From Arabidopsis thaliana (lineage: Eukaryota; Streptophyta; Magnoliopsida; Brassicales; Brassicaceae), in the NCBI RefSeq assembly GCF_000001735.4, contig NC_003071.7, positions 4,643,151 through 4,707,150 of the forward strand: 64,000 nt of DNA, read 5' to 3'. This document shows positions 284-64,000 of the stretch, one piece after another. The notes below the pieces were generated by a model. The model saw only the letters and a program-made list of their open reading frames with translations, was not told the origin of the DNA and ran no database searches. The translations under genes and the position numbers were made by a program. How positions within the stretch are numbered: the first letter of the stretch is position 1; every line of letters begins with the position of its first letter.

Positions 284-2770
284 CTAAAGCCTCTTCTTTG
301 GGTCCTTCTCATCCTCTTCTTTCTTCTCCTTTTCCTTCTCCTTCTCATTCTCCTTCGTCTTCTCCTTCTCCTTCTTTTTTTTTTTTCTTTCTATTTTTGC
401 CTTTTCTTTCGTAAAATGCGAACTGACATTAATTGATGGCTTCACTAACCTTCTCGGTGGCAACACACAGCTTATTATAGTTCTTCGTCCTCATATTTCT
501 TTTCCTTCCTACAACTTCATCACCACAAGCCATCTCATCAGATTTATCGTCACTACTCTTCTCAAAGCCAGATCCCTCAAAAAAAAATGAACACGTTTCT
601 CTCCACCTGTCTTATTCTCACTAGTCGGCTCATTATTAATAACACTCTTCTCAAGACATGATGACTCATCACCACTCCTTAACTCACCATCAACACTTTT
701 CTTAACACACTCCTTAACTCATCATCAACACTCTTCTCAACAACACCTAACACATCATCTGTCCTCAAAATCTCATTAACAGTGTTCCCAAAACCCGGCT
801 TTGTCTCAACAACATCATCTCCAACCATTTCATCATCAACAGCCTTCTCACCAACATTTATCTCCTAGACAGCCTCTACTAGCTTCAACATACCATCTTT
901 TTTCAATGCCTCGTGACCACTCTCACCAACTGCTTTTTCACCACCTCCATCAAAACTGGTCTCCGCATCACCTCTATAATCACCTCCATCAAAACCGGTC
1001 TCACAATCACCTCTAAAATCACCTCCACCAAAACCAGTCTTACCATCTGTCTTTTCACCAGTTGCTTCCTCTTCTCTATCTTTTTCTTTTGTTTTGCTTG
1101 TCTCTGCATCCCTTTCAAGTTTATCCAATCTCAGATAGACATCTTGCATCGCATCTGCTACCTCTGTTTTCACTATTCTCTTTAGAAGAGAAGGTAACAA
1201 CAACTCCGACTCCTCTTTCATTTCTTCAATTGGTGGAACATTTTGTTGCGTCTCCTCCATTTGTTCAGCAGCTGGGACCTGTACATCTCCATATCCTCGA
1301 GAATCTACATACAACTTTTAAATATCTTTCCACCAAATTTTCTTATGTTCTACATCCAGACGCTCATTCCATGCATCAGCAATAGGGTCCATTGTGGCTT
1401 CATCATCAAATGGCCCCACAATGTCAAGCAAAAGAGCTTCCTCACCCGCTGATGGTTGTAGATTACTAATGATGTCCAACAAAGAACAAGAAAACAGAGG
1501 TTACCACATGTTTTACTAATCCAAAATACTATTGATTACCTAACTAGTTCTTACCTATGTTGTTCCAAGCGCTTTGTTTACTTCTTGAAGTTGAAAATCT
1601 GTCATTCCATTATCTTCAAATTTCTTTTTCATATCAATGGACATCCATCCTTTGCGCCTATTACATTTTTTTGAAATTGTTTAGACATCTCAGGAATGCA
1701 TTCAAACGCCAAAACCTATACACATTTTACACAGTAATATATCTTAAATCATTCAAAACAGATATACTAATTATTGAAGAAGAAAAACAAAATTTTACCT
1801 TCAGAGGAATGATGAACCCTGGAAACAAATAGTCAATTCCCACTTTCCCATCTAATCGCTTCTTCATCAAGTGAACGATCTTTTCCATAGTGTCTTCAAA
1901 AGTATTTTGCCCGCTAGGAAACTTTTTTACCTATTCCAAGTCATTCACTATCTTCAGAATAAATGAATGTATGCTACCAAACCTTCTCCTCCCTCTTACT
2001 ATCGCGCATAAAAAGAGTAAGACAGCCACCCGCAACTGATCTCCATCACACTCATCTTCCATTGACTTCAGCATATCTTCCACATCCTTCACATTTACAA
2101 CTTGTGTTCCATAAACCTTCTCCACAAAGTCAAAGCTACCAAAATTCCTTGTTTTAAAGTCTAATTCAAATTGATGAAAATCTAAACCAGTAATTAGAGC
2201 ATGTTCTCTAAGCGAGTAGCATATTGGAACGTCATTCACCACAAACCAGCAAACCCTCTTCTTCTGTGTCGAAGCAGTCTGCATAAGGAGCATCAACATA
2301 CCATGCACCTTATTTTTACTATGCCTATCCATGTGCCATATATGCTTGAATTGCTTGTTCGTTCTAAACCATTTCTTTTTATTCTCCTTGAGCATACTTC
2401 CTATGATAGCAAACGTGTTACCAATGGTACACCTTGTAGAAATTTTCAGAATCTTTTCATACCCGTCAGGAGTAAAGAATAAACTCATCCAAATCTATTT
2501 CTATTTCCTGCAATACTAACACACAAAAATTTAGTCCCACAACATAGTTGTAAATATTGATACTCTATTGTACTTATAAAAATCAAACATGAATATTACT
2601 TACCTCATGATCAGAGGCATCATTAGTCCCCCTCATCTTCCAAGTCATTGTCCATTGCAACTACTATCTCTAAATGGAGTGGATCAGATAGCTTTTGTCT
2701 ATTATCACTTCTAAGATAGGCATATACTTCACTTCTAGAAGTAGGTTCTCCTCCTCTACGAGTAACAACT
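284..2770 (-). pseudogene. DUF1985-domain gene remnant (KI-MULE type)
   Basis: Degenerate multi-exon gene. The best part is at 1931-2488 (185 codons), whose middle reads CYSLREHALITGLDF, the hallmark of plant DUF1985. After an in-frame TAG at 1931-1933 the similarity continues (FPSGQNTFEDTMEKIVHLM to about 1800) and, after an intron, with AFECIPEMSKQF at about 1700. An upstream piece at 2625-2770 reads SEVYAYLRSDNRQKL. Downstream, 865-1470 encodes an acidic, glycine-rich region preceded by DPIADAWNERLD, and 284-466 encodes a Lys/Glu-rich tail. DUF1985 proteins are usually carried by Mutator-like KAONASHI elements, where the domain precedes a C-terminal Ulp1-like cysteine protease. No protease is present, so it is lost or lies left of the window. 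Stops and frame breaks make this a pseudogene. The family call is good; exon borders are approximate. Confidence 0.72.
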
Positions 2771-2858
2771 ATAGTAATTAGTACTTGCAACAACAAATCC
2801 AAAATACAAATTCAATATCAAACATTTAAAATACTTGTCATCTTTTGTTTTAGACATA

Positions 2859-4302
2859 CACTACAAAAAAAGTCTACATTGATAGCATAACGACATAGCA
2901 CAGATTACTCAACTGCTATTGAAGATTAATTGTAATTTTTATTTTCATATATATCATTTTATATACGCTAGGATAGAGTTTGCTGATATAGCATTTTATT
3001 AACGCTAATGTATAATTTTATTAAACGGGAAACTAAAATACCTTATTCCGCTAGAAATTTAGCCAAAATTTAGTCTTTCGTGTAATAAATTCTAAAATAA
3101 TATATTCTGCCTACATTATAAAAATTTAGTCTTGGTTTTGTTTCTTGTAGACTAATTAGTACTAACATACATTACATGGTTTTGGATTTTATTGTTTGTT
3201 GGCTTATACAAAAGATTCTTAGGTCAAAGAGGAGCGAACATAGATAATTAAAAGATGAATGATAGTGAAGGTAAGTCATTTTCTTGGAAACTGTTTCCCG
3301 AATTTGCTTGGCTGGTTGGGAAGATATGTATATCTTATTGTTTTAGCTGCATTGATTTCACTTATGTGGTTCTTCACTTTTATTTTCACAATTATCAGAA
3401 GTTCCTGATCTAAGTAAATGGTTTTCGAGTTATGTCTATGAATCACCAATGCTGGATACAAGTGATGGTCTTAACTTTTCTTTTTTTGGAGAAAGTAAAG
3501 GTATAAATAATATGGAATTAGTCTCTTCTGAGGGTAAAGATATGTCTCAGTCACATGTTACGTTTGCATGTGAGTAAAGATGTTTGTTTGCTAATAAAGT
3601 GATTCGATAAGTTTTGTAGTAGGAAGCATGAATCTTCCTTGTTTTCTTTCATGTACCAGAAATTACAGATGTCGTTGAGGACAGTGACAAAGATGAAGAC
3701 TGCAACATTTGGAGAAAATATACGGAAGAGTTTAGTAGTCTTTTTCGAAAACCTATGAGAAAGAAAGAGAGTACAACAACAACGTATGAAGCTGAGCTAA
3801 CTTCCTTGAGGAACCGAGTCCAATATCTAGAAAACGAAATAAGGATTTTGCATGATCTCATCAATCGTTTTCAAGTTCTCCAATTGCAAAAGTAGTATAT
3901 AGAATTAAAGATATTAGTTGTACATGTTTGAGACTCGTGTTATGTATAAATTAATGTTTGATCTTTTGGAAATTTAATATATATATTGAATATTTTCCAA
4001 ATTAAACAGATTCCACCAAATGTTTGTAGAGTAATACAACTGCATAAAATAAGAGTCATAAAACTGAATATTATAGCACTGAAAAAATGATAGATCATAG
4101 CATGGATGTATCGTCATATAAAAATAAATAAAAGCGTTCAAGAAAGTGCTATTGTATGTGAATCTATCGTAGCATTTAAAAAAATGCTAATGTATGGGTC
4201 ATACTTACGATGCATGCCGATGTTATAACATTTGTGAATTCGCTATATTATATGTATGATAGCAAATATTTCGCGCTAACAATGTCAATATTTCTTGTAG
4301 TG
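2859..4302. mobile_element. Non-autonomous CACTA (En/Spm) element, 1.44 kb
   Basis: The element starts CACTACAAAAAAAG and ends TTTCTTGTAGTG, the inverted ends of plant CACTA elements. It is flanked on both sides by ATA (2856-2858 and 4303-4305), a 3-bp target duplication as expected for the superfamily. Both ends hold many subterminal copies of AGCATTT/AACGCTA-like words, the usual TNPA-type binding repeats. No transposase is present. The interior carries a small spliced reading frame. The element sits upstream of the DUF1985 gene, probably in its first intron. The same terminal words recur in the CACTA element that begins at 48103, so that family could have supplied transposase. Confidence 0.9.
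3255..3895 (+). CDS. Three-exon ORF carried inside the CACTA element
   Basis: Predicted exons 3255-3270, 3399-3569 and 3669-3895 sum to 414 nt, exactly 138 codons including TAG, with GT...AG borders (donors GTAAGTC and GTGAGTA; acceptors ATTATCAG and AATTACAG). The 137-residue product begins MNDSEEVPDLSKWFSSYVY, has an acidic middle (EDSDKDEDC) and ends in a heptad-rich coiled coil (LRNRVQYLENEIRILHDLI). I do not recognise the family. Codon choice and intact splicing suggest a host gene fragment captured by the transposon rather than transposase. The alternative acceptor at 3658-3659 would give an immediate stop, which is why the downstream AG was chosen. Whether it is expressed cannot be judged from sequence. 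Confidence 0.5.
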
Positions 4303-4305
4303 ATA

Positions 4306-5453
<1,148 letters not shown>

Positions 5454-15330: not shown

Positions 15331-17627
15331 ATGGTCGAGAATCGAGATCTTGATATTGGTACTGCACCATGTACGTATAACACAAGGACTAAAATCTTCT
15401 TATGGATTATTTACTGACTGATTTTATGAACCGCTTCAGTTATTTTTTGTGTCTTTGTGTAGATGCAGTCAAGAATTTTCTCGGTCAAGATCCTGAAGGA
15501 GCTCATCTCATGGTGAAACTAGCGAGTACACCTTGTAAATCTCTCTACAGATATATCTAAAGTTCAATAATGTTTTTGAAAATTGGGTTTATTTTGTTTG
15601 ATAACTCTTTGCATTATGTAGCTGATAGGTCAGAGATGAGTCCTTCAAGCTTGGCAACGTTGGCATTGGATGATACACATGGTCTAACAAGTCATAAAAA
15701 CACATATGGTACTAGATTCATGCTCGAAAACTCGATTTCTTGCACTTTTGACATCTAAGAATTTCCTTGTGTTTTTCTCCTTCGTAGTAAACAAGTTGCA
15801 GATTCCTAATGATCAGCAAAATCAATTTCATTCTTATCAATGGTCTACTACAACTAATCATATACCTTGTAAAGAACAGACTCAAACCATTCTCTCTTCT
15901 GAATATTGAGTTTGTTTTGTTTGATATCTATTGCATTGTACAGCAGGTCATGATTGCAGCTGGCAAAACTTGGTTTCTTTCACTTTTGACTTCTAAAGCT
16001 TCCTTTGGTTTCTCTGTCTTGTAGTAAACCAGTTGCCGATTCCAATTGGTCAGCAAAATCATCTTCCTCAAAACCAATGGTCTACACCAAATCATCAAGC
16101 TTCTAAAGAAGAGATTCAATCTTTCTCTCTTAATCTATCATTTGTTTATCACTTTTACTTGAGCATTTTTTATGAATGGCTCAACTTTCATTCTCCATAG
16201 GTACTCGTGGAGCTCCTACCGTTCAACCAGCAGCTAATGATCAAACCTTTTTCTCCATAGGTACCCATCTAGGAGCTCCTACCGTTCCACCAGGAGCTAA
16301 TGATCACTGGTTTCCTTATAGTGATCCTGCGTGTAAAAAAGACTTAGTCTTTCTCTCTTAATCTATCATTTGTTTAACACTTCTACTTGAGCATTTTAAT
16401 GAATTACACTACTTTCTTTCTCCATAGGTACCAATTCTGGAGCTTCTGCCGTTCCACCAGCAGATAATGGTCAATGGTTGCCATATACAGATCCTACGTG
16501 TAAAGAAAACACTCAACCTTTATCCCTCATAGTTTAAACCCTTTTACATTGAATTACTCTTTCTTTCTTTTTTCTCCATAGATAACTATACTGTTGTATA
16601 TTCAACCGGTGCACCAGCAGCCACTGCTCAATGGCCAACATCTAATGATTTCCTTCCCATAGATACTCGAGCTCCAACTTTTGCAAAAGCACCTACTGCG
16701 GCATTTGACCATTTTGCAAATGGTTTTGGAGAAGATATTAATAATAGCAGCCCAAATTTCCAGCCGATGGATCCTTCAACAGCAAAACTACTAACACAAC
16801 TCGACCACCTGCAACAAGACCCATATGGACAATACCAACTGCCACTGCAGGTTCTAAAAAAACCCTCACTAGAAGAGCTGCGAAAACTTCCATATGAAGT
16901 AAACAACGTGCTGCGATATGATGGAAACAACAACGGGATGCAAGGAGTACTAATGAAACCCGAAAAGCCGCCACAAGACCTATATGGACAATGCCAACCG
17001 CAACCACAGATCCAACGAAACTTTTCAGTACAAGAGCTGCAAAAACTTCAATATGAAGCAAACAACAACGGGTTGCAATATGATGCACACAACAACGGGC
17101 TGCAAGGAGGACTAACGCAACCCGAGAAGCCACTACAAGACCTATATGGAAAATGCCAACAGAATCTCTCAGTAGAAGATCTGCTACCTCTTGAATATGA
17201 AGCAAACAACAACGGACTGCAAGGAGGACTAACACAACCCGAGAAGCCATTACAAGACCTATATGGAGAATGCCAACAAAATCTCTCAGTAGAAGATCTG
17301 CTAACTCTTGAATATGAAGCAAACAACAACAAACTGCTAGGAGTACCAACGCAACCCGAGAAGCCACTACAAGACCTATATGGAGAATGCCAACAGAATC
17401 TCTCAGTAGAAGATCTGCTACCTCTTGAATATGAAGCAAACAACAACGGACTACAAGGAGGACTAACGCAACCCGAGAAGCCACTACAAGACCTATATGG
17501 AGAATGCCAACATAATCTCTCAATAGAAGATCTGCTACCTCTTGAATATGAAGCAAACAACAACGGACTGCAAGGAGGACTAACACAACCCGAGAAGCCA
17601 CTACAAGACCTATATGGAGAATGCTAA
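15331..17627 (+). CDS. Repeat-rich protein gene with duplicated phase-1 exons
   Basis: An exon series can be read in one frame, each beginning and ending in phase 1 (T|..., donors GTAAAG/GTACGT, acceptors CTCCATAG or TTCGTAG). Exons start at about 15331, 15463, 15622, 15788, 16025, 16201, 16429 and 16582. Neighbouring exons are clear duplicates: NFLGKQ/NFLGQD, then VNKLQIPNDQQNQ/VNQLPIPIGQQNH, then GAPTVPPGANDHWF/GASAVPPADNGQWL. The last exon encodes 39-residue repeats rich in Asn, Gln and Leu (SVEDLLPLEYEANNNG, PEKPLQDLYGEC) and ends at TAA 17625-17627. Without that TAA the frame stays open to TGA 17739-17741. I do not recognise the family. A Gln/Pro-rich C-terminal region of a transcription factor is possible, but no DNA-binding domain is present. 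The true 5' end is unknown. Confidence 0.55.
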
Positions 17628-17741
17628 CAGAATTTCTCAGTAGAAGATCTGCTAACTCTTGAATATGAAGCAAACAATAACGGCCTGCTAGGAGTAATAC
17701 CGCAACAACATCGTTATCATCAGGAAAAAGAGACGATCTGA
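17157..17741 (+). repeat. Five 117-bp coding tandem repeats
   Basis: Units begin at 17157, 17274, 17391, 17508 and 17625 with a period of exactly 117 bases (39 codons). Each starts CAACAGAATCTCTCAGTAG or a close variant. The fifth starts TAACAG, a C-to-T change that turns the first codon of the unit into a stop. Upstream partial units (from about 16860 and 16990) are more diverged, so the array seems to have grown at its 3' side. Confidence 0.95.
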
Positions 17742-57344: not shown

Positions 57345-60300
57345 CTCCTTCACAATCATTTCTAACATAAAAACTCTCATCATCAGAAGATTGGTTCCCT
57401 AAATCTTCTACTTCAGGAACAGAATAAGGTGCAACAAACTCCTCTTTTGTTTCTAACTCGTGATACCCTCTAGGAGGTGCCCTCATAACTACAGACTAAG
57501 CTGATGAATCATCTTCTTTAGAGTAGAAAACCTGTTTCGCTTGTGATGCCAAAATATATGGATCTTCTCTATACCCAGATTGGTTAACATTCACATTCAC
57601 TAGTGTAAAACCTTCATCTTCTCTTACACCATTTCCTTTGTTGGCCCACTTACACTTGAATATTGGAACCTGAAACATATGATAATCCAACAAGATTATC
57701 TCTTGGATAACTCCATAGAACACAACCATGCTTGCGATATGCCTAGTATCTCTGGCACTAGATCTACACATGCTGAAAGCTTCATATGTGACGCCACTGT
57801 TTTGAGTCTTACGCATTACATCCTCAGTGTGAAAGCGGTGCCCATTAATGACATATCCTTTATAGGACTGAGCTATATGCCTTGGTCCATGAGCCAACTA
57901 TCTCAACTTAGTTGAATGCTCGTGGGAATTACTAGGTATCTAATGACACATCAGTAAAAAATACCAAGTTAGACTTATGCATTTCTAACTAAGTTAGTAT
58001 CTGATTCAATACATAGAAAAATAGAATTATCAATAACCTTGTTCTTTTATCCACAATGAGAATCTGGCTGTGTGAAATTTCCACAGAAGAGTCTCATTTT
58101 TTCCACATCGGATATCATTAGCTTGCAATTCTTCCATATGCATCCTAACAATCAAAAGATATCAAGTTAATTTCATATACTTCACAATCGATTTAGTAAA
58201 AGTTCTCAAAGGTGAACTTACTCTACATATGGATTCATCACTGCCATGTTCATTAAAACATATCGATGGGCTATCTCTCGTTCTTTATCAGTAAGAATAA
58301 CTTGCCTACCTTTTTGCAATGGTCTGCCTTCAAGAATGGTTGCAGATAACTCAACATCTTCATTTCGGTTTACATTCTCTTGAACTGGTACAGAATTCTG
58401 TAAGAACTCTAAGCAGAATGCAATACATTCACCTGCCATATATCCTTCAGCCATACACGCTTCTGGTCTTGCATAGTTCTTTACATATGACTTAAGCGTT
58501 TTCATGTACCTATTGGTCAAGTTTGCAATCTGTTAGACCACTGCAAGAGTATCTAAATTGATGAATTATTAAAAGTTATCAGAATTTAAAAATAGAGTAC
58601 CTTTCAAAGGGGTACATCCATCTGAAATGGACCGGTCCACCCAAACGTGTCTCCCTTGCTAGATGTAAGGGTAGATGAAACATTATATCAAAAAGAGATG
58701 GAGGAAAATATCTCTCTAGTTCGCACAGTGTCTCTACACACTCATCCTCTAATGATATTAGCTTCTCAGGGTCAAGAACTCCTACCACAATCTTCTAAAG
58801 AAACTGCACAATCTAGTCACTACAAGCCTAGGTCCACTTGGAAGCAAGCCTCGCAAAGCAAATGGTAGGAGGTTTTGCAGAAGCACATGGTGATCGTGAT
58901 ATTTTAATCCATCTATTATGGGAGGATCAACGAACACAGAGTTTGCAAGATTTGCACAATAACCATCAGGTCCTTTGAACAAACTCAGCCTCTTGCAAAA
59001 TCTCTTTTTCTCTTCTTTTGACAGCCAACAAGTAGCTAGAGGTAAGTAAGATTTCTTCCCTTTCATCTGAATGTGTAAGTTCCCTCGGATCCCCATATCT
59101 TCCAAATCTTTTCTGGCCTTTAATCCATATTTTGACTTAGGAGATTGCATCAAAATAGACAATATAGCATCAGAGACATTCTTCTCCACATGCATAACGT
59201 CAATGTTGTGCCTAACCGGCATATCCTGATACACAAGTTAGACGACTAAGTTAGAAATCTAGTTACAAATATAATTAAAACTGGAGTTATGATATAGATA
59301 ATTTATACATTACACATACCTTCCAATAAGCTAACTCGAAGAGAATGGACTTTTTCTTCCACCTCCAAGTACCATTGTCTTCATCATTATCATCATCTGA
59401 AATCACCTCATCGTCACAGACAATTGTTCTTTTTTGTTTGCTGTTTTTCCCTAAAGGTTTCCCAAACTCATTTCTGAAGTCCTTAAGTAACTCATATATT
59501 TCAACTCCACTTTGAATTCTGCTAGCAAACCCTTCTTCTAATGTGTTGTCAAAACATTTCTTTCTTCTTCCATACGGATGCACAGGCCTCAGCCTCTTTC
59601 TATTGCCTAAATACACATGTTTTCGACTAAATTTCAACCACCTAAAATGTTAGATATGACTTGAATTGGATTGGGCCCTTAACTTTAGGCCCAATCAGTT
59701 TAGGGTTAATTAGGGTTTCTTTTGTATAAGTACTCTTCTTAACCTAACCTCCATGTATTCTGATTTCTGTAATTCTCCAGTAATAAAATCTGTCTCTTTG
59801 CCCGTGGATGTAGCCATCAGAAAGTGTTGGTGAACCACGTTAAATCTGTGTCGTCGTGTTCTTTACGTTTTTGTTATCTTGCTCACATCTGTTATAACAT
59901 AAAAGGTGTATCTTTTCCACACACAACACACGCTTGTTTCCCTTTCACTTTACACCCAGCTAATGTCCCCAAAGCTGGATAATCAGTGATACTCCACAGC
60001 AACATTGCCTTCAGTGTAAAATTCTCTTTTAGAAATGAGTCATAAACGATAATACCTTCATTCCACAGATCATTAAGATCATCTATCAAAGGTGCTAGAT
60101 AGACGTCAATATTGTTGCTTGGTGCAGTTGGCCCCAGAATCAATAACGTCAACATTATATTCTCTGACTTCATACACTTTGTTGGCTCCATGTTGTAGTT
60201 GACCAATAGAACTGGTGATGTGCTATACTTGATATTCTGGATCAAGAATGGATTCATTCCATTTGTTGAAAGTCCGAGGCGCAGGTTTCTTGGATCAGAG

Positions 60301-60705
60301 GAGAACTCTGGCCATTTGTTATTCACAGTGGCCCAAGTTATTGAGTCAACCGAATGACGCATTCTTCCATCCGAACTAGCATTGTCTGAATGCCAACGCA
60401 CCTCTTCAGCTATCCTTTTGGATCTAAACATCCGCCTAAATCTGTCTTTGATTGGAAAGTATCTAAGTACTTTAGCTGGGATCCCTTTCTTTTCCTCACT
60501 ACTATGTTTATCCCTTTCCCATCTTGAAACACTACACCGTGGACAGCTTTCCATGTCCTTGTATTCCTTCCGGTAAAGAATGTAGTCATTCTTACAAGCA
60601 TGAATCATATCATATCCAAAACCAAACATCTTCAAGAAACTCTTCATCTCATTTGTTGATCTCGGGAGAACATTATCCGTTGGAAGCATGGAATTTTGTG
60701 CAGTT
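57345..60705 (-). pseudogene. TNP2 transposase with DUF4218 and DUF4216
   Basis: From right to left: tnp2 domain (NVLPRSTNEMKSFLKMFGF, HACKNDYILYRKEYKDMES, LRLGLSTNGMNPF, LTLLILGPTAPSNNIDVYL, VKGKQACVVCGKDT) at 60705-59905. After the solo LTR come LKFSRKHVYLGNRKRLRP and PVRHNIDVMHVEKNVSDAI. DUF4218 follows (CVETLCELERYFPPSLFDI, PVHFRWMYPFERY, CMAEGYMAGECIAFCLEF) at 58780-58218. DUF4216 (SVTYEAFSMCRSSARD-like, VVFYGVIQEIILLDYHMFQ, PIFKCKW) is at 57897-57496, and an acidic tail runs to about 57345. These are the standard parts of a plant CACTA transposase. The N-terminal domain is outside or deleted by the copia insertion. Several introns are plausible, and some frame breaks are real. Confidence 0.9.
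59648..59899 (+). mobile_element. Solo copia-type LTR, 252 bp
   Basis: TGTTAGATATGACTTGAATTG to CATCTGTTATAACA, flanked by TAAAA on both sides (59643-59647 and 59900-59904), a perfect 5-bp duplication. It lies within the TNP2 coding region. The same LTR, with an internal deletion, ends the copia element at the right edge of the window. Confidence 0.95.
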
Positions 60706-60942
60706 TGAGATCCATGCAAAATTCGTGTCAGAGCACAAGGTTTCCTTTTCTGCGTTTCGTGCGATTTTCGGGTTGAAAAAAGTTTGTGTAGATCTGTGTA
60801 GAAGAAGGTTCGTGCAAAATCCATGTAGAAGAAGTATTGTGCAGAATCAGGTTCTAGGAATTCCGCGTTTGTAATCTGTGAGAAGATGTCTGCGATAAAT
60901 GTGAAGATCGACAAGATTTCTGGGAGAAGCAGTTTCAGTTTC

Positions 60943-61175
60943 AGGTCCAAGGTAGGGCATCTGGTCTAGTGGACATCTGGCTCGGTGGGTGTTTTGGTCC
61001 AGTGGACCTTCAGGCCTATGATAGGCAGCAAATCCATGTTGAGCATCTGGCCCGTGTTAGATAGATGGCCCTTGTTGGGCATCTTGTCTGTATTGGATAT
61101 CTGGCCCTTATGGGGCATCTGGTTTGTCTCGGACATGTGGTATATGTTGGGCATCTGGCCTGATATGTATCAGGC
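60943..61175 (+). repeat. Hairpin array A (in gag position)
   Basis: Short inverted words follow each other at about 20-base spacing with CATCTGG linkers: GGTCTagtGGAC, GGTCCagtGGACC, GGCCTatgATAGGC, GGCCCttgttGGGC, GGCCCttatgGGGC (loops in lower case). Some units are decayed. It begins right after the first 20 codons of gag. Confidence 0.7.
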
Positions 61176-61299
61176 ACCTGAATCAATTACAGATGATCAA
61201 GCTTGTGATCAGGCAGGTAGTGGCAGCAATGGACTAGGAAAAAGAAAGAAGAACGTAAACATAAAGCTGTTTTCTATGGGTCCCAAGTCAGGTGATAAC

Positions 61300-62422
61300 T
61301 GTAATTACTGGAAATACTATTGTTTTTGAGAAACAATATGATTTTGTTGTTGTAACAGAAGATGACACTAACTCTGAAGAGGATTTTGCTCTATTTAACG
61401 ATGGAAACACACATATGTCTAATGTGTGGGTTCTTGATATTGGAGTGTCTAACCATATGTGTCCAAGGAGAGAGTGGTTCTCAATATATACAGAAGTAGA
61501 AGACGGTTGCGTGAAGATTGCACACAATTTTATAAGCTATGTTGTTGGAATCAGCTTAATAAAGATCAGGACACATGATGGTAGCCTCTACACATTGAAC
61601 GATGTCAGACATGTTCCGTTAGTGGAGAATAATTTGATATCAGTGAGTCTATTTGATAGCAGAGGTTTCAAATTTTCTGTTGGAGGCAGAATTCAGAAAG
61701 TCTGTGAAGGGTCTGATGTGAATATGGAGGGTGTCAAACGTGGTACCTTGTACATCATACAAGGGTTTACAGTGATAGGTTTAAGAAACAGTGCATCTGA
61801 AGAGTTTTACAAGAATAGGAGTGAGCTTGGTCATATGAGTGAAAGAGGGGTACAAATTCTGTGTGGCCAGAAAAGGCTGCAGATATACAATGGTCTGAAA
61901 AGTTATTCATCAGAGTTCATGATGTTATGTAAGGAAAAAGAGGTTTCTCGACATCACACAGTCAGAGATACACCAGAACAGGATTGTGTAGCTGAATAGG
62001 TGAATCAGACATTGTTGGAGAGAGCAGGGTGTATGCTTTCAAGTGCTGGTTTGGAAAGAAGATTTTGGGCTGCAACAGCCATAGATAGTGATAGTTTTGA
62101 CAAACAGGTGGAGCTAAAAGTTGATCAACAAGAGGATTTGAAGCAGCAACACGAAGAAAATCTAGAACTATACATAGAAGTTTGTCTGACAGAACCTACC
62201 CAAACAGAATCTACACCATCAGAGAGTATACCATACAATATCGTTCTAAACCGTACGAGGAGGATAGATGTTCGACCACCTCTGAGATACGGTTTAGAAG
62301 ATACAACTGAGTATGCATTACAGTTTGGAGAAGAGGTGGATACTAACGTGTCATCTAGTCATCACAAGCGGTTAGTCGCCAAGGAGGGTGATCTGACTGC
62401 TGAAGGGACATCAGGCCTCTGA
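61300..62422 (+). pseudogene. Copia protease, GAG-pre-integrase and integrase remnants
   Basis: WVLDIGVSNHMCPRREWF at 61429-61482 corresponds to the copia protease active site, where DSGAS is normal; the Ser-Gly-Ala part is changed to IGV. Then comes LNDVRHVPLVENNLISVSL, and a GAG-pre-integrase-like segment RGTLYIIQGFTVIG with SELGHMSERGVQIL. The integrase core is mostly deleted; only its end is left: HHTVRDTPEQDCVAE, a TAG at 61997-61999, and NQTLLERAGCMLSSAGLERR to about 62070. The linker before reverse transcriptase follows (RRIDVRPPLRYGLEDTTEY). The catalytic integrase residues cannot all be found. Inactive. Confidence 0.82.
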
Positions 62423-62990
62423 GAGGCATCAAGCTCCAGGTGGAGCAGCAGGTCCCTCAAGGGATGTCAGGCCTCTGAGAGGCATCAGGCTCCTGACGGA
62501 GCAGCAGGTCCCTAAAGGGACGTCAGGCATCAGGCTTTTGCCGGAGCAGCAGGTCCCTCGAGGGACGTCAAGCCTCTTAGAGGCATCAGGCTCCTGACAA
62601 AGCAGCAGGTCCCTTGAGCGACAACAGGCCTCTGAGAGGTATTAAACCCCTGATGGGGTAGCAGGTCTCAAGCGAGACATCAGTCTTTTTTAAAAGAGGC
62701 ATAAGACCCCTGATGGTGGAGACATTTCCGTACAAGACATCAGGTCTCTAAAAGTGAATCTGGCTCTTTATTGAGCATCTTTCCCATTGGAGCATTCTAG
62801 CCTGTGAACAGGCATGTGGCTCAGGATGGAGAAATCTGGCTTGTGACAAAGAATCTGGTCTCCAAAAGACATTATGGCTGTTTGAGAAGCAGCAGACTCC
62901 TGACTGGAGCAATCTGGCCTTTGAGAGGCATTCTGGTTGCTGAAGCAAAAGGCTCATGAATGGAGCAAGAAGCAGCACGCTCTTCATATA
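62404..62990 (+). repeat. Hairpin array B (in reverse transcriptase position)
   Basis: A run of mini-palindromes: GCCTCtgaGAGGC, GCTCCaggtGGAGC, GTCCCtcaaGGGAT, GCCTCtgaGAGGC, GCTCCtgacGGAGC, GTCCCtaaaGGGAC, GTCCCtcgaGGGAC, GCCTCttaGAGGC, ACCCCtgatGGGGT, GTCTCaagcGAGAC, GCCTGtgaACAGGC and others, separated by ATCAGG or AGCAGG. Three stem types rotate in the first 250 bases; units become irregular after about 62760. It starts just after the linker that normally precedes reverse transcriptase and ends before RNase H. Confidence 0.9.
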
Positions 62991-63029
62991 TGGAGCTGAA
63001 AAGCAACTCTGCAGGCAACTGTGCCGCTG

Positions 63030-63345
63030 TCAACAACAGAAGCAGAGTACATGGCTTTGACAGACGTTCCTAAAGAGGGTATTTGGCTGAAAGGATTGGT
63101 CAGTGATACGGGTTTGCATTAAGATTAGGCTACAGTGTACTGTGACAGTTTGAGTGCGATTTGTTTAGCCAAGGATCAGGTCCATCATGAGAGGACCAAG
63201 CATATTGATGTGAGATATCATTTTCTGAGAAATGAGAAGAGGATTCAAGTGAAGAAGGTAGTGACTGCTGATAACCCTACAGATATGTTCACTAAGCCGG
63301 TTTCCTCAGAACAAGTTTAAACATTGTTTAGACTTGCTGAATATC
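63030..63345 (+). pseudogene. Copia RNase H C-terminal remnant
   Basis: Reads VPLSTTEAEYMALTDVPKEG then WLKGLVSDTGLH, a TAA, and DSLSAICLAKDQVHHERTK with HIDVRYHFLR, EKRIQVKKVVTADNPTDMF and TKPVSSEQV to 63317. This is the conserved end of copia pol with the T(T/E)AEY and D(S/N)..A motifs of RNase H. The rest of RNase H and all of reverse transcriptase are missing, replaced by array B. Confidence 0.88.
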
Positions 63346-63358
63346 TCAAGCTGTTAAT

Positions 63359-63800
63359 CGCCCTGAAGGGCGAACAGGCCCCTGATGGGGTGCTAGGTCC
63401 GTGGAGGGACATCTGGCCTCTGAAGAGGCATTCGGCTCTCGATAGAGCATCCGATTCGGTAGAGCATCTGGCTCAACAGAGCATCTAGCTCTACAACGCC
63501 TCTAGCTTCTGATGAAGCGTTTGGCTTGTCAGAGTAACAGACATCTGTCTCAATGGAGTATATGGCTTCTGGAGAAGGATCTGGATCAATAGAGCATTCG
63601 GCCTCTATAGAAGCATCTGGCTCTGTTGAGCATCCGGTTTCTGCAGAAGCATCTGGCTCAGTGGAGCATCCGACTTCTGAAGAAGCATCTGGCCTCTGAC
63701 GAGGCATCATGCTCTAGGTGGAGCAGTTTGGCTCGATAGAGCATCTGGCTTCTGAAGAAGCATCTGGCCTCTAACGAGTCATAAGGCTCCAAGTGGAGCC
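63359..63800 (+). repeat. Hairpin array C (before the 3' LTR)
   Basis: About 20 units. Examples: CGCCCTgaAGGGCG, GGCCCCtgatGGGGT, GGCCTCtgaaGAGGC, GGCTCtcgataGAGC, GGCTCtgttGAGC, GGCTCagtgGAGC, GACTTCtgaaGAAGC, GGCCTCtgacGAGGC, GGCTTCtgaaGAAGC, GGCTCCaagtGGAGCC, joined by ATCTGG, ATCCGG or ATCAGG. Unit length is mostly 18-21 bases. It starts about 40 bases after the pol stop and ends 7 bases before the LTR, so it covers the place of the polypurine tract. On the minus strand it is an open frame of 7-residue repeats. Confidence 0.93.
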
Positions 63801-63807
63801 AACAAAG

Positions 63808-64000
63808 TGTTAATTAGGGTTTCTTTTGTATAAGTACTATTCTTAACCTAACCTCCATGTATTCTGATTTCTGTAATTCTCCAGTAATAAAATCTGTCTC
63901 TTTGCCCGTGGATGTAGCCAACAAAAAGTGTTGGTGAACCACGTTAAATCAGTGTCGTGTTCTTTATATTTTTGTTATCTTGCTCACATCTGTTATAACA
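63808..64000 (+). repeat. 3' LTR of the copia element, internally deleted
   Basis: Matches the solo LTR at 59648-59899 from TTAATTAGGGTTTC to the end TGTTATAACA. It begins TGTTAATTAGGG, so about 56 bases near the 5' end are missing by a join at a TTA repeat. The last base of the window coincides with the LTR end. Confidence 0.9.

Follow-up and report, generated by a model that had tools for sequence, protein, structure and literature searches.

Arrays of short hairpins in a decayed Ty1/copia copy of Arabidopsis thaliana and a hairpin at the pol stop codon of related elements

The nearest described feature that we found to the hairpin arrays reported here is the RM box of Sireviruses. In the accessible text of Bousios et al. 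(2010, PMC2829016), RM boxes are short palindromes present in many copies, which lie in the LTRs and before env, the env-bearing members carrying them also in the linker downstream of pol. Each element has a single consensus, with a CGG-CCG core in all but one, and according to the authors the boxes are absent from non-Sirevirus copia elements. The same text describes an inverted repeat around the junction of the polypurine tract and the 3′ LTR in copia elements. A. thaliana has, in addition, the SIRC repeats, presented in the available part of PMC10342631 as short repeats with diverse spacers that are frequent in pericentromeres and mobile elements.

Neither arrays of covarying hairpins nor a hairpin at the stop codon of copia elements was found described in the titles and abstract openings searched, subscription papers being mostly outside this coverage. 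Satellite-like tandem repeats were reportedly found by Macas et al. in 2009 in the 3′ UTRs of plant LTR retrotransposons. The RNA stability element of Rous sarcoma virus is a structured RNA directly after the gag stop codon, which protects from nonsense-mediated decay.

The DNA studied (the window) is a stretch of 64,000 nucleotides of A. thaliana (contig NC_003071.7, positions 4,643,151 to 4,707,150). A preliminary description, made from the letters alone, had reported long arrays of small hairpins with varied stems and constant linkers over 62404..63800. The arrays are real, but the segment ~63,006-63,354 is RNase H coding sequence, and the first array begins already at ~62,366. The retroelement setting envisaged there was borne out: the arrays sit in a Ty1/copia copy, in the linker type of sequence that leads from the pol stop to the polypurine tract. 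DNA search of the genome revealed at least two relatives, L014 (C3:14.86 Mb) and L015 (C2:4.11 Mb), which together with the window makes at least three copies.

L014 is 5.2 kb long, with LTRs of ~250 bp that are 93.2% alike; at 7e-9 substitutions per site per year this divergence corresponds to ~5 million years. The RVT_2 domain, by which Ty1/copia elements were recognized, was matched in its pol part (E 1.4e-65). L015 has two LTR matches, and the window copy has a truncated 3′ LTR and a separate upstream LTR. Target-site duplications of 5 bp were read around L015 (TCTCC) and around the window LTR at 59,648 (TAAAA); none was evident at L014. In both relatives the array lies between the pol stop and the LTR. 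The L014 pol stop directly abuts the hairpin TCGCCC-tgaa-GGGCGA, which is followed by a run of hairpins over ~350 nt. The longest sense frame in the L014 linker has 56 aa, on which ground the array was rejected as protein-coding sequence. An antisense frame, open for 168 aa, crosses the array (L014:4893-5399, minus strand). By reading, an inverted repeat flanks the AAGGTGGAG polypurine tract in L014, L020, L029 and L032, as published for copia elements.

The decayed window copy spans ~60,691-64,000 and adjoins CACTA tnp2 sequence (Transposase_21). Its segments, all on the plus strand, begin with the 5′ UTR and gag start (60691..60945, 90.7% to L014:789-1045); the first ~46 bp after the LTR, including the primer-binding site, appear to be missing. 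Most of gag is replaced by hairpin-like repeats with CATCTGG linkers (60950..61190), a weak signal taken alone. Then come a remnant comprising the gag end, Pol_BBD and integrase coding sequence, the last identified by reading (61169..62078, 71% and 78% to L014; Pol_BBD on 61,292-61,999, E 3.2e-22), and a remnant of the coding region just before RT (62079..62374), with short matches to L014:3105-3128, 3225-3298 and 3330-3393. The place of RT is taken by array A (62366..63005), whose first part is a degenerate duplicate of the region around the pol stop. The decayed RNase H end of pol follows (62994..63354, 81.5% DNA identity); 62,997-63,314 has 83% protein identity to L014 RNase H and contains three internal stops. 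The pol stop codon site, a TAA at 63355..63357 by alignment with L014 and L015, adjoins the hairpin TCGCCC-tgaa-GGGCGA and starts array B (63355..63805), beyond which lies the 3′ LTR (63806..64000, 90% to L014 LTR positions 57-250), devoid of its first ~55 bp and of the preceding polypurine tract. The window copy is a recombinant, in which array A stands in the place of RT and array B is the true 3′ linker.

Upstream of the copy there is a solo LTR of the same copia family (59648..59899, plus strand, 252 bp, 92.5% to the L014 5′ LTR), bracketed by directly read TAAAA target-site duplications, its host being a CACTA tnp2 transposon. It is followed by a CACTA tnp2 fragment (59900..60693, no strand assigned) that duplicates the downstream flank (59,702-60,693 vs L016:457-1445, 96.6%); Transposase_21 was matched on the minus-strand frame 59,892-60,950. 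About 800 bp of CACTA flank occurs in duplicate, to the left and to the right of the copia copy (96.6%; window 59648-60693 region, L016:457-1445). The duplicated flank and the solo LTR fit a tandem duplication followed by LTR-LTR recombination. Elsewhere in the window, at 16814-17706, tandem repeats of 117 bp and 162 bp overlap open frames.

Array A repeats the L014 triplet of stems GTCCC, GCCTC and GCTCC with spacings of 45 and 56. Both the codons that precede RT in L014 and the pol end of L015 and of array B contain AAGCTGTT. The left junction of array A in the window reads CAAGCGGTTAGTCGCC; on the right, the array sequence has a terminal GGAGC and abuts AGCTGGAAAGC, which belongs to RNase H. 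Such an arrangement would be consistent with a switch of template from one RNA of the element to another, one of the two already carrying a deletion. Template switching had been proposed as a possible process by which the arrays were made or maintained. Junctions at short shared sequences are compatible with it as the means of moving an array into the coding region, but an origin of the arrays anew by reverse transcription is not supported: L015 keeps the hairpin order of L014 with one block missing, and array B has the first five hairpins in common with them. The varied array was therefore inherited, and the copies differ largely through blocks gained or lost.

Hairpin content was compared with 100 dinucleotide shuffles. 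Array A (62,400-63,005) contains 22 non-overlapping hairpins with stems of at least 4 bp, as against 11.9 ± 2.4 (maximum 17) in the shuffles, and array B (63,355-63,805) contains 20, as against 8.2 ± 2.0 (maximum 13). Both arrays thus have about twice the hairpin content of the shuffles. The stems are short, since those of at least 6 bp number none in array A (shuffles 1.5) and three in array B (shuffles 0.9). In the stretch 60,950-61,190 there are six stems of at least 4 bp vs 3.7 in shuffles, which alone is not significant. Folding of the transcript, suggested as a check, was predicted to be more stable than in shuffles for part of array A (z -5.8) and part of array B (z -4.1). Measured against shuffles, folding of L014 is better for the antisense strand, with z -3.36, while the sense strand reaches z -1.96 and is equalled by 2 of 200 shuffles, so there is no preference for the sense strand. 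Among 30 units, T-G intermediates number 8 and C-A intermediates 7, nearly the same, and there is no sign of wobble tolerance in a sense RNA. Missing strand and wobble bias is as expected for decayed DNA. Searches against Rfam gave no match in L014, L015, L021 and L024, and only mir-596 in window 60,600-64,000 (26.5 bits vs a gathering score of 80); a known RNA family at gathering score was thereby dropped as a candidate for these sequences.

Covariation was tested on units excised by linker sequence alone, blind to pairing, from a pool of window arrays A and B, the 5′ stretch and the copies L014 and L015; the right arms were then permuted. In 35 distinct units with 12-nt cores, 93 of 140 arm positions were paired vs 54.6 after permutation, a value reached by 0 of 10,000 permutations, and at two stricter linker cut-offs the observed value was reached by 1 and 0 of 10,000; because the units are related to each other, these counts should not be read as strict probabilities. 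Most of the pairs in this class are C-G or T-A. Units with 10-nt cores (GGCTC...GAGC) did not covary (2,469 to 4,580 of 10,000 permutations reached the observed value) and are copies of one palindrome. A looser, first segmentation gave 94 of 148 paired positions vs 65.9 in the pool (0 of 5,000 permutations) and a weak signal in the five arrays taken singly (24 to 414 of 5,000 permutations reached the observed value); complete 4-bp arms numbered 6 vs 1.7 after permutation (maximum 8). The proposal that both stem halves change together beyond shuffled controls is therefore upheld for the units with 5-bp stems and 12-nt cores, and falls for the GGCTC/GAGC units. The test named as its refutation, reduction of the arrays to one satellite palindrome, divides along the same line, failing for the 12-nt-core class and succeeding for the 10-nt-core class.

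An ordinary minisatellite whose palindromic consensus has since decayed would account for the 10-nt-core units, which have one sequence and no covariation, for the weak covariation in single arrays and for the periods of 56, 45, 36 and 19 with which Tandem Repeats Finder calls the arrays. It would not produce the covariation of the pooled 12-nt-core units, with 0 or 1 of 10,000 permutations, nor that of a second group of tandem hairpins described below, and we consider it the least credible explanation of all. The tandem repeat calls also separate the arrays from SIRC repeats, which in the available text (PMC10342631) are direct repeats of 10-29 bp with tandem repeats excluded: direct repeats of at least 10 bp free of tandem repetition are not what is seen here, where the linkers measure ~7 bp and Tandem Repeats Finder recognizes the arrays. 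The repeats of Macas et al., compared by title alone, are similar in being tandem and located in 3′ non-coding sequence, and differ from the short hairpins with covarying arms found here.

The likeness to RM boxes is closer, as far as the accessible text of PMC2829016 goes: the arrays, too, belong to a Ty1/copia element and consist of many copies of short palindromic boxes in the linker. The preliminary statement that no retroelement system of this kind had been described was accordingly too strong, although the published boxes follow one consensus per element, whereas the stems here vary within one array; L014 also differs with its 5.2 kb. No CGG-CCG boxes, with gaps of 0-8, were present in seven stretches. 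In place of the several linker polypurine tracts of Sireviruses, one of GGTGGAG type was found in L014 and none was matched in L015, and the env-like linker frame that some Sireviruses have is lacking in L014, whose sense frames reach 56 aa at most.

If the arrays worked as Sirevirus boxes may do, the palindromes would be dyad-symmetric DNA sites for a transcription-regulating protein. Both strands are equally palindromic, and the available part of PMC2829016 gives as many as 32 palindromic boxes for Sireviruses, distributed over LTR and linker. A single sequence-specific protein is, however, hard to reconcile with stems that vary from unit to unit in one array, CGG..CCG dyads were missing from the seven stretches tested, and the units occupy the far 3′ end of the transcript instead of the LTR promoter. 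We regard binding sites as very unlikely. The published inverted repeat at the tract junction (PMC2829016, in the text available) resembles the arrays as pairing at a copia 3′ end, and by reading L014 has one; that repeat spans the tract, whereas the hairpins begin at the pol stop, which precedes the tract by 74-536 nt in the loci with a tract match.

Pol 3′ ends were read for 140 of 150 RNase H matches (L017-L046, L054-L163), the other 10 being partial matches. The stop analysis kept 121 of the 140, in 74 clusters; dropped were those with no stop within 75 nt of the match end, those with short downstream sequence and the frame-shifted window copy L019, which is included in the 122 used for tract distances. 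A stop hairpin was defined as a perfect stem of at least 5 bp starting between -8 and +9 of the pol stop codon. Such a hairpin, which is absent from the preliminary description and is the more interesting part of the results, was present in 15 of the 20 closest non-redundant families, all from one genome (14 of 19 without the window family), vs a mean of 2.2 and a maximum of 8 in 500 shuffles. Eighteen bins of the same size downstream of the stop had a mean of 2.7 and a maximum of 5 of the 20 families. Where the polypurine tract directly follows the stop, only 2 of 31 control families had the hairpin (shuffles 3.1). It was not found in L022, L030, L031, L037 and L046. Coding bins just upstream of the stop are hairpin-rich as well (7 and 9 of 20), perhaps through common A-L-x-x-L codons. 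At the homologous site, between the ...LKL.. stop and a conserved GCCGAAGGTTAA-like sequence, the stems are unrelated across families and still complementary: AAGACT/AGTCTT, GGCGA/TCGCC, AGTGAC/GTCACT, CAAGT/ACTTG. Predicted folding over the 74 clusters gave z -1.36 in coding sequence at -40 and modest values of -0.65 to -0.89 around the stop.

A broader rule, by which the stop hairpin would be general in copia elements lacking a tract at the stop (30 of 43 clusters, against a mean of 8.9 and a maximum of 13 in 20 shuffles), was dropped in favour of the 20 families alone, because in L058, L068, L076, L087, L116 and their kin the stop seemingly, by reading, lies inside the 3′ LTR. L065, L072, L079 and L101 are a separate type: a long hairpin begins at the stop TAA or beside it, and by reading its right arm extends exactly as far as the polypurine tract. 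In another copia family (L068, L087, L142) AT-rich hairpins were read in the 3′ LTR region that follows the pol stop. Their loop cores are similar (TAG-gagttat-CTA with variants) and their outer stems varied (ATTATTAG/CTAATAAT, TCATTAG/CTAATGA, GATTTAG/CTAAATC). Bacterial assemblies yielded 18 copia loci (L164-L181, many in one Trichormus assembly), probably eukaryotic, that is host, contamination; 17 had a near stop and 4, two of them from one contig, a stop hairpin of at least 5 bp. Viral contigs contained no relatives by protein, alignment or pattern.

Hairpins are also tandem in a second group of eight loci (L020, L021, L024, L084, L028, L031, L043, L056), mostly ~28 bp apart, with up to five perfect ones; L028 has only one besides the stop hairpin. 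Stems include CTGAGT/ACTCAG, CTGAAC/GTTCAG, TCAAGT/ACTTGA and TTGAGT/ACTCAA. With a loop pattern picked after the hairpins were seen and with many off-register sites counted, 177 of 462 positions were paired vs 125.2 (0 of 10,000 permutations). The unit was found at 17 sites with up to two mismatches, the reversed-pattern control at none. In 29 loci scanned, the distance from stop to tract was 74-79 nt in 14 (mostly with one hairpin), 103-113 nt in 4, 147-208 nt in 6 loci of the tandem group and 536 nt in L014; L018, L022 and L025 had no tract match and L019 is frame-shifted. The near-constant spacing of 74-79 nt in 14 of 29 copia loci is an observation in itself. The distance rises with hairpin number, and since it varies, the anchor of the hairpins is the stop codon rather than the polypurine tract. 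Anchoring at the stop codon points to termination or to the beginning of the 3′ UTR.

At the decayed loci the elements no longer maintain pairing. Compared by reading over their first six hairpins, L014, L015 and array B show five changes without compensation, a single wobble and a single compensated pair; the arms at these fixed, decayed loci now drift independently, and no ongoing maintenance of the kind suggested was seen. The same changes weigh on the idea that pairing needs no function: in replication or reverse transcription the new strand would fold back and one arm would serve as template for the other, which would keep the arms complementary as their sequences drift. Quasipalindrome template-switch mutation of this kind has been described for E. 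coli (PMC7202029, in the part available), and it would explain complete stem turnover between conserved flanks, the lack of strand preference and the block duplications. With one compensated change against five uncompensated and one wobble, such correction is not active at fixed loci, and it gives no reason for the place of the hairpins, which 15 of 20 families have at the pol stop. Correction confined to reverse transcription may, like selection, be compatible with the data. We consider functionless correction rather unlikely, although it deserves to be taken seriously.

We favour, with some reserve, the reading that the arrays are the expanded 3′ linker of an old Ty1/copia family, grown from a stop-codon hairpin, and that the co-changing arms reflect a role of the RNA; the window arrays are probably an extreme expansion of the stop-codon hairpin common in the clade. 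The starting state would be the single hairpin at the pol stop that relatives have, which the window lineage may have multiplied through block duplication. While the elements were active, both arms would have changed together because the stem-loop mattered in the element RNA. An array would also have been spliced into pol of the now dead window copy, the simplest route being a template switch from one packaged RNA to another. The hairpin might act as ribosomes reach the stop codon, or on the genomic RNA. It could shield a message with a long 3′ UTR from decay after termination; the Rous sarcoma virus element may offer a functional parallel here, being one long retroviral structure to which no relation is shown. 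Alternatively, the last ribosome could be delayed, so that the polyprotein is held near, or meets, its own RNA. More tentatively, and with less conviction than we attach to the expanded linker, the polyprotein gene of a group of plant copia elements may end in a freely changing, multiplying stem-loop in which pairing is kept, an undescribed RNA element of translation termination that would serve either as a decay shield or to let the RNA capture the polyprotein being translated from it.

The results suggest an overlooked RNA structure in this copia group, many relatives carrying at least one hairpin at the end of their last gene. If so, a structural RNA element would have been missed in the copia elements of the model plant because conservation extends to its pairing and to its location at the stop codon, and not to its sequence. 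It would then provide a test of how RNA is protected or packaged by copia elements, and an example of total turnover of stem sequence. The arrays themselves record how a non-coding part of a retroelement can invade its own coding region.
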